From Robertkochia marina (GTDB lineage: Bacteria; Bacteroidota; Bacteroidia; Flavobacteriales; Flavobacteriaceae): DNA of 64,000 nt. The notes beneath the pieces are model-generated. The model was not told the DNA's origin. It made no database searches and saw only the letters and a program-made list of their open reading frames with translations. The DNA lies in the NCBI RefSeq assembly GCF_004799345.1, contig NZ_SSMC01000001.1:868001-932000 (forward strand). The letters are read 5' to 3'. A program made the translations under genes and the position numbers. Shown here in pieces: positions 42,715-57,119 of this stretch (its first letter is position 1; each line of letters starts with the position of its first letter).

Positions 42715-44502
42715 CTACATCTTGGCCAAAAGCTGCTTCAACTCTTGTGCCAAACTCATTTCATCGATCTCAGCGATCCTAAATAATTCTTTTACATTGC
42801 CGTGTTCAATAAAAGTGTCAGGAATTCCCTTAAGAAAAACCGGGGTTTTATACCCGTGTTCTGCCGCGAATTCCAGTAAGGCACTTCCCATTCCGCCATG
42901 CACTACGCCGTCTTCCACGGTAATGACGGCCCGGTGTTCCAAAAATACTTCATGAAGCATCTTGGTATCTAATGGTTTCAGAAAGCGCAGATCATAATGA
43001 GAAACAGCCTGCAGCTCTTCCTTGGTTAATTGGCTTAGAGCGTCCTGTACATTATAGGCCATATTACCTATGGTAACCAGTGCGATCTTATTGCCTTTTC
43101 TTAAGATATCACCCTTGCCGATAGCAATGGTGTTAAAGGGTTTCTCCCACTCAGTGATCCGTCCTCGTCCCCGGGGGTAGCGAATCGCGATCGGGTGGGC
43201 CAATCCTTTGGAAGCTGTGTAGAGTATGTTTCTCAGTTCCACAACGTTCCTTGGTGCAAAAATAATGAGATTTGGGATACATCTCAGAAATGCAAGATCA
43301 AAAATTCCATGATGGGTAGCCCCATCATGTCCAACCAGGCCTGCCCGGTCTAAACAAAAGATCACCGGCAGATCCTGAAGGGCCACATCATGAATGACCT
43401 GGTCATAAGCCCTTTGTAAAAAAGTGGAATAAATATTACAAAACGGGATCATGCCGCTTTCGGCCATACCCGCGGCAAGGGTTACCGCATGCTGCTCGGC
43501 AATACCCACGTCGAAAGCGCGGTCCGGATAGGTTTTCATCATGATATTCAAAGAACTGCCCGTTGGCATGGCAGGGGTAATGGCAGTGATCTTATCATTA
43601 TAACCGGCCAGTTCGGTAACCGTTTTTCCGAAAACATCCTGGAATCGTGGCGGAAGCCCTTCTGTGTTTTCCGGGATCAATTTTCCTGTTCTGGCATCAA
43701 ACCTGCCCGGAGCGTGATAGCGCACCTGGTCTTCTTCAGCTTTTTTTAGCCCTTTGCCTTTAGTGGTGATCAGATGAAGAAAATGAGGCCCTTCTAATTT
43801 TTTTATACGCTCTAATTCCTTGAGCAAGAGCGGCAGATCATGACCGTCAATAGGGCCTGTGTAATCTATATTGAGAGCCTTGATGATATTCGGGGCTCTG
43901 TGGTTGGGGTATTCCTTGATTCTGGTGAGGTAATTTTTTAATGCCCCAACACTGGGGTCAATGCCAATAGCGTTGTCATTTAAGATGATCAGGAGGTTGG
44001 CATCACTGACTCCTGTATGATTCAAAGCTTCAAAAGCCATTCCGGCAGCAATCGAAGCATCTCCTATCACTGCAATATGCCTGCGATCACTTATTCCCTG
44101 CATTTTAGATGCCATGGCCATACCAAGGGCTGCCGAAATAGAGGTGGAACTATGCCCGGTGCCAAAGGTATCGTAAATACTTTCTGACCGTTTGGGAAAT
44201 CCGCTAATGCCATCAAGCTGTCTGTTGGTGTCAAAAATATCTCTTCTTCCGGTAAGGATCTTATGTCCGTAGGCCTGGTGACCTACATCCCACACCAGTT
44301 TGTCATCGGGGGTGTTAAAAATGTAATGCAGGGCTATGGTGAGCTCAACAACGCCCAGGCTTGCTCCGAGGTGCCCCTCTTTGGTGGCAACGATGTCAAT
44401 GATAAACCGGCGTAATTCTGCGGCCAGATCTTCAAGTTGATCAGGTGGTAAGCTGCGAAGGTCAGAAGGATCATTGATCGTGTTCAACAGGGAGTTGCTC
44501 AT
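42715..44502 (-). CDS. dxs: 1-deoxy-D-xylulose-5-phosphate synthase
   Basis: A 595-residue thiamine diphosphate enzyme that condenses pyruvate and glyceraldehyde-3-phosphate, the entry to the MEP isoprenoid pathway. Signature segments: WDVGHQAYGHKILTGRRD, the TPP motif GDASIAAGMAFEALNH with LLIILNDNAIGI, FCLDRAGLVGHDGATHHG and RYPRGRGR. It is slightly shorter than the ~620-residue E. coli enzyme, as usual in Flavobacteria. It is divergent from tadA, with a -7 element only about 6 bp before its ATG. Confidence 0.97.
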   Translation of the reverse strand: MSNSLLNTINDPSDLRSLPPDQLEDLAAELRRFIIDIVATKEGHLGASLGVVELTIALHYIFNTPDDKLVWDVGHQAYGHKILTGRRDIFDTNRQLDGISGFPKRSESIYDTFGTGHSSTSISAALGMAMASKMQGISDRRHIAVIGDASIAAGMAFEALNHTGVSDANLLIILNDNAIGIDPSVGALKNYLTRIKEYPNHRAPNIIKALNIDYTGPIDGHDLPLLLKELERIKKLEGPHFLHLITTKGKGLKKAEEDQVRYHAPGRFDARTGKLIPENTEGLPPRFQDVFGKTVTELAGYNDKITAITPAMPTGSSLNIMMKTYPDRAFDVGIAEQHAVTLAAGMAESGMIPFCNIYSTFLQRAYDQVIHDVALQDLPVIFCLDRAGLVGHDGATHHGIFDLAFLRCIPNLIIFAPRNVVELRNILYTASKGLAHPIAIRYPRGRGRITEWEKPFNTIAIGKGDILRKGNKIALVTIGNMAYNVQDALSQLTKEELQAVSHYDLRFLKPLDTKMLHEVFLEHRAVITVEDGVVHGGMGSALLEFAAEHGYKTPVFLKGIPDTFIEHGNVKELFRIAEIDEMSLAQELKQLLAKM

Positions 44503-56644: not shown

Positions 56645-56871
56645 AAAAAAAGAACCGCCCTTCCAAAACAGGAAGAACGGTTCTCCAACTAAATAACCAA
56701 CCAAAAAATCAACTAACTAAATTATTCCAAAACTTCGGAGCAGTTTTTCCGTCTTTACCTTCAAGTTCAGGAACTCACTACGGTGTTCTCAAACAGCTCC
56801 TGTTGATTTCATCCAATCAACCGGATGATTGAAGATCTCATGTCTTTTAGACCTTTTAGATCAGAAAAGAC
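56645..56871 (-). ncRNA. Candidate structured small RNA ending in an orphan intrinsic terminator
   Basis: On the minus strand an intrinsic terminator (arms AGAACCG 56678-56684 and CGGTTCT 56651-56657, inner CTTCC/GGAAG helix, then a U-run at 56645-56650) faces no gene. Preceding it are a 10-base pairing with one mismatch (56791-56800 with 56737-56746), two mutually exclusive hairpins (56802-56821, and 56809-56828) and a GTCTTTT/AAAAGAC hairpin (56842-56871). No convincing ORF or exact promoter was found, and the 5' end is unknown. I could not match it to tmRNA, SRP or RNase P RNA. Confidence 0.4.
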
Positions 56872-57119
56872 TCCCGGGCGGCGGAAACAATTTGATAGTT
56901 TTATTATACAGAACGCTGCTTTTGAAAAATTCATTGTCCTTCATGTCATAATCATGTGTTAAAGTTTTATCCCGGCTGCATGGATGAACAGGAATGGGCA
57001 AGTTCACCATACGAGGGCACAGCATTATGCAGGCCTGAATTTCGGGTTTGTATTTACAACCTTTCAACCATCATGCCAAAATGATGATGAAGACGGTATC
57101 TGAATTGAATTATATCCTT

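Follow-up and report, generated by a model that had tools for sequence, protein, structure and literature searches.

The window analysed here (the whole stretch of 64,000 nucleotides of Robertkochia marina DNA) carries a strong intrinsic terminator which faces the minus strand (56645–56686), with a stem of 16 pairs followed by a run of T, while the flanking genes nadD and gpsA are both on the plus strand. The locus raises the question of which transcript this terminator ends. A first-pass annotation had placed terminator and flanking genes in the same way and had regarded the terminator as an orphan, preceded by a candidate undescribed minus-strand RNA with alternative hairpins and by no plausible minus-strand protein. 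On sequence grounds, a minus-strand RNA ending at the terminator is very likely. To our knowledge, small-RNA regulation in Bacteroidota is poorly understood, and it seems to run without classic chaperones.

A decayed lipoprotein gene upstream of the terminator

Many relatives also carry the minus-strand sequence preceding the terminator, with the stronger matches mostly adjoining gpsA. Among 79 gpsA loci, sampled without regard to the pre-terminator element described below, 49 have an intact minus-strand lipoprotein gene (~310 aa, e.g. MKTIKLL...SCYTEVIVED...), with the element forming the end of the gene in 37 of these. No Pfam or NCBIfam model matches the lipoprotein. Within the window, an in-frame relic of its C-terminus (KTLTHDYDMKDNEFFKSSVLYNKTIKLFPPP, 31 codons, 56876–56968, minus strand) was identified through similarity to the intact protein of one relative, L031 (61% identity over 31 residues, E 1.9e-5). 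Since the gene is intact in most of the relatives examined and its relic is found in the window, the supposed orphan is the 3' end of a decayed minus-strand gene. The window itself indeed holds no plausible minus-strand protein, as had been annotated, but the in-frame remnant of one was overlooked. The relic was also considered as a conserved minus-strand ORF, which was excluded by an in-frame stop within it in the sister species.

The remaining four genus genomes contain no match to the lipoprotein; the ORF is gone and the element retained in all five genus genomes examined. The element was retained in only 6 of 29 unselected ORF-less gpsA loci, so it has been lost together with the gene in many lineages. 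Unselected figures for the element are those from these 29 loci and the five genus genomes, as loci L001–L025 were collected via the element and contain it by construction. At L013, a stop-ridden lipoprotein relic is accompanied by a damaged sigma-54-type site. Intact ORFs also contain a second strong window of synonymous constraint at the lipoprotein N-terminus (alignment columns 24–35), in addition to the one described in the next section.

Promoter-like sequences

A putative sigma-54-type promoter (TTGGCATG-ATGG-TTGA, equivalent to TTGGCATGATGGTTGA) with a predicted start near 57052 lies upstream on the minus strand (57064–57079), where the −24/−12 pattern TGGCAY-R-N4-TTG is read at 57079–57064 on the same strand as the terminator. 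The strict pattern occurs in the 64 kb twice on the minus strand and not at all on the plus strand, the other site being at 42738–42753 (minus strand, TTGGCACAAGAGTTGA). The promoter region ATCATTTTGGCAYGAWGGTTGAAA is conserved in the sister species (L002), and 28 of the 49 intact relatives have a sigma-54-type site on the gene strand, most often ~80 nt before gpsA. Within the genus, such a promoter is clear at the locus in only two of five members, with a near match (ATGGCAYGGTTTATG) in two more.

A second promoter-like block, AAAACTTTAACA-cat-GATTATGA...CAAT-N17-CGTT (56912–56968, minus strand), is situated inside the former coding sequence and comprises TTTAACA (56963–56957), CAAT (56936–56933) and CGTT (56915–56912). 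The protein sequence alone does not account for the constraint on the codons of intact ORFs around AAA-ACT-TTA-ACA...CAAT...CGTT, which extends to synonymous sites (27 ORFs; 41 ORFs). C precedes AAT and GTT in 35 of 41 ORFs, the amino acid there being any of four or five. Because the N-terminal window ranks as high as the block in the synonymous-constraint scan, the argument for the block also draws on these two third-base C sites and on its retention where the ORF is missing. CAAT-N16/17-CGTT is retained in 14 of 16 ORF-less loci, compared with 24 occurrences in 384,000 background bases; in these loci it usually has TTTAACA upstream and mostly lies 72–87 nt before the element. In the whole genome, the block with TTAACA at the right distance was found once, at the nadD-gpsA locus. 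We infer that the block is a promoter, with an RNA start near 56905. The CGT of the block is reminiscent of the −10 box in an ECF-type motif described for Flavobacterium psychrophilum (PMC9723704).

The pre-terminator element and its recurrence in Flavobacteriaceae

Just before the terminator lies an 18-nt core element, TTTTGGTTGGTTATTTAG (56689–56706, minus strand; element sequence UUUUGGUUGGUUAUUUAG), within a 42-nt stretch, GAATAATTTAGTTAGTTGATTTTTTGGTTGGTTATTTAGTTG (56686–56727, minus strand), which is shared letter for letter with the sister species L002. The pattern TTTTGGTTGGTTAKTTAG (K at position 14) was found in 153 of 299 Flavobacteriaceae genomes, the reversed control giving one match, and was absent from all 166 genomes drawn from other families in the same order. 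Of 30 sampled TTTTTGGTTGGTTA sites, 20 (23 by eye) are followed by a terminator; the reversed pattern gave 2 of 30. In folded loci the element is followed by a hairpin with 8 or more pairs in 46 of 47 cases, with differing stem sequences, and is itself exposed, at least 17 of the first 20 nt being unpaired in 33 of 47; the window segment in this set was incomplete, its own stem being seen in separate folds.

The element occurs behind genes for the lipoprotein, a Ser/Arg-rich protein and a YxRGR-type protein, and in a stand-alone sRNA. Upstream of it, 63 sigma-54-like sites were counted on the same strand and none on the opposite strand (134 kb), with none near control sites, the element loci being a few homologous classes and not independent of one another. 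The association is nevertheless common to several classes, namely the lipoprotein, the Ser/Arg-rich protein, the stand-alone sRNA and sites after uvrA. The 3'UTR of uvrA was considered as an element context for L117 and L251 and dropped, a sigma-54-like site being located between uvrA and the element.

The stand-alone sRNA (~115 nt) lies behind a sigma-54-type promoter and comprises two stems that show compensatory changes, a loop, GAGUGGUUACUU, that is conserved, and a UUUUGGUUGGUUAGUUAG tail; it corresponds to no Rfam family. It was seen at L118, L123, L127, L130, L191, L196, L197, L215–L219, L221, L222, L227, L228, L236, L238, L240 and L248, with a likely counterpart in the present genome within L151. 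The protein with a Ser/Arg/Asn-rich C-terminus (~350–470 aa) is encoded by a gene ending in the element, mostly with a sigma-54-type site ~1.1–1.4 kb upstream (L220, L223, L225, L226, L231, L232, L237, L239, L245, L246, L249, L250, L252 and L253).

In the genome of R. marina, the element (exact or with one mismatch) ends likely RNAs at L151, which has a sigma-54-type promoter, and at L147 and L153, which by eye have primary-type promoters. L147, downstream of an hppD-like gene, is a likely sRNA in which a TTTTCATAATTTAAAG stretch precedes GGTTGGTTA and a terminator, with its primary-type promoter (TATATTTG) upstream. What is likely the same sRNA is present at L256, L270, L272, L273, L281 and L282, and its 3' part occurs in three exact copies in one genome (G027). 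At L113 a terminator preceded by a related form of the element, AGTTGGTTGGTTAGTTAG (TTTTAAGTTGGTTGGTTAGTTAG), lies behind a clpB-like gene; among the F. psychrophilum genes listed with sigma-54-type promoters is clpB (PMC9723704). Sequence around TTTTTGGTTGGTTT is found on two contigs (L152 on C3 and L154 on C5, one of them at a contig end) and is probably a repeated element.

Proposed origin and action of a probable minus-strand RNA

The reading we favour, and hold to be probable, is that the lipoprotein mRNA has become a stand-alone non-coding sRNA (minus strand, 56645–57079), which would probably act in trans via its tail. The ancestral unit would have been a lipoprotein gene behind a sigma-54-type promoter, its mRNA ending in a largely single-stranded element and a terminator, and in relatives a short RNA limited to the mRNA end could arise from the block inside the 3' part of the ORF. 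In this genus the ORF would then have decayed with the promoter-like elements, pre-terminator element and terminator being retained. A start at the internal block would give an RNA of ~260 nt ending near 56645, and perhaps a second start at the sigma-54-type promoter one of ~400 nt. Such a transcript would cross decayed sequence which has no conserved fold, expose the GU-rich element and stop at the terminator.

Action in trans is suggested because the tail is common to otherwise unrelated RNAs; the GU-rich element would probably mediate it, either pairing with mRNAs or binding a protein. Complementary sites before ATG, searched for with TAACCAACCAAA, exceed the permuted control, the excess coming mostly from the antisense strands of RNAs that bear the element; a small number of genuine 5' sites were seen (L259, L275, L283 and L285, and in this genome L149 and L150), not clearly above control.

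It is unlikely that the locus is a mere pseudogene in which promoter, 3'UTR and terminator are parts not yet eroded and devoid of present function. The relic with its stops would fit such a remnant, as would the loss of the element from 23 of the 29 ORF-less lineages and the state of L013. However, two species share 42 identical nucleotides and a conserved promoter with unalignable sequence between, the element persists throughout the five genus members, and the internal block has outlived the ORF in most of the ORF-less loci.

Still less probable is that the retained parts only terminate or buffer transcription, shielding the convergent nadD from antisense reading, and that no trans-acting RNA is made. 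Conservation of 18 nt across the family exceeds the needs of termination, the element recurs at stand-alone sRNAs, and the promoter-like block, which termination does not need, has also been kept. These observations outweigh the position of the terminator between convergent units, the invariable placement of the element right before terminators and the fact that not all such transcripts have sigma-54-type promoters.

The sRNA derived from the lipoprotein mRNA would most likely be a member of an undescribed Flavobacteriaceae family of sRNAs and 3'UTRs which is partly under sigma-54-type promoters. More tentatively, this family, with the tail UUUUGGUUGGUUAKUUAG and a terminator, comprising stand-alone and 3'UTR-derived sRNAs and having many members under sigma-54-type promoters, may constitute a non-coding arm of a stress response that operates without Hfq; as part of the same proposal, the nadD-gpsA mRNA would have turned into an sRNA by loss of its coding part, promoter and tail being kept, possibly in more than one lineage.

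The family-wide element, together with the many RNAs having sigma-54-type promoters, offers a handle, as there is one short sequence to mutate and one bait for capturing a protein. The nadD-gpsA locus presents naturally occurring stages, beginning with an intact mRNA that likely has a small RNA built in and ending with an RNA that stands alone, and because this series is available the origin of new regulatory RNAs from coding genes is directly testable.

Folding of the region preceding the terminator

The hairpins that had drawn attention to the locus are all present, and consist of (i) a long-range helix of 9 out of 10 pairs between 56737–56746 (GGAGCAGTTT) and 56791–56800 (AAACAGCTCC), (ii) GTTGATT/AATCAAC (56802–56821) and TCATCC/GGATGA (56809–56828), and (iii) GTCTTTT/AAAAGAC (56842–56871), with the direct repeat CTTTTAGA at 56844 and 56853. 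With the terminator included, 231 nt fold better than 200 of 200 shuffles (z −3.24). With the terminator left out, 56690–56880 gives z −0.49, and 55 of 200 shuffles are equally good. The region had been called rich in pairing, and it does contain seven perfect inverted repeats of at least 6, against a shuffle mean of 2.7; this excess is weak, with 35 of 500 shuffles reaching seven. These comparisons with and without the terminator place the terminator beyond chance and the hairpins not clearly so.

The part of the RNA that holds the hairpins (56728–56875, minus strand) is decayed and unconserved. Between two congeners the hairpin region has ~30% identity and cannot be aligned, in contrast to the 42 nt preceding the terminator, which do not differ in the same pair. 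A structured regulatory RNA acting via mutually exclusive helices in 56737–56871 is thus highly improbable: the helices exist, but no conserved or covarying helices are seen between the congeners, the folding without the terminator is ordinary, the region is unalignable with the sister species, and downstream there is no minus-strand gene for a cis switch to control. The alternative hairpins look incidental, sitting as they do in decayed sequence. Of the annotated undescribed structured RNA, what stands is an RNA very likely ending at the terminator. What is conserved, as judged by comparison of the available genomes, is not the hairpins; it is the promoter-like elements and, before the terminator, the single-stranded element.

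Comparison with known RNAs

No Rfam 15 family reaches its gathering score in the window, and 6S and Flavo-1, the two families singled out in the first-pass annotation, are not even among the weak matches at the locus. These include two Bacteroides sRNAs, BTnc049 (26.6 bits, gathering score 81.9) and BTnc201 (23.0 bits, gathering score 105), which resemble the locus in having a terminator hairpin near an AU-rich stretch; at these scores the locus is not a member of either. Ten other element-bearing loci gave nothing relevant in the same database. No description of the RNA or element was found in the literature searched, which was open-access only, so this absence is no proof. A search for Hfq found none in this genome or in 12 relatives, the positive controls being found, and a protein with an RRM_1 domain (RbpB-type) was absent from this genome and four congeners and found in the Bacteroides control.

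Type I 3'UTR-derived sRNAs are transcribed from an internal promoter in a coding sequence, as are MicL and DapZ of enterobacteria. Intact relatives of the present locus resemble them in layout, in that the promoter-like block, a putative promoter, lies towards the 3' end of the ORF, with the 3'UTR element and terminator beyond; as these two follow the intact ORF, the terminator is common with the parent mRNA, as in type I. In the present genome, by contrast, the ORF has decayed and the RNA end stands alone, there is no Hfq, and the tail is common to several unrelated loci.

FopS/GibS, which RbpB binds, is a family of sRNAs present in multiple copies in Bacteroides (PMC11697453). It belongs to the same phylum and likewise has several sRNAs per genome with a common sequence and no involvement of Hfq (PMC11697453). 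It differs in that the common part in our case is a GU-rich stretch right before the terminator, a distinction made by description only, and in that here no RRM_1 protein is found, many RNAs have sigma-54-type promoters and many are the 3' ends of mRNAs. Closer in lineage is Rfp36, a putative regulatory RNA of F. psychrophilum with a sigma-54-type promoter (PMC9723704), which, compared by description and not by sequence, is like the present RNA in being flavobacterial and having a promoter of this type. The regulon in which Rfp36 lies covers protein quality control and envelope functions (PMC9723704).
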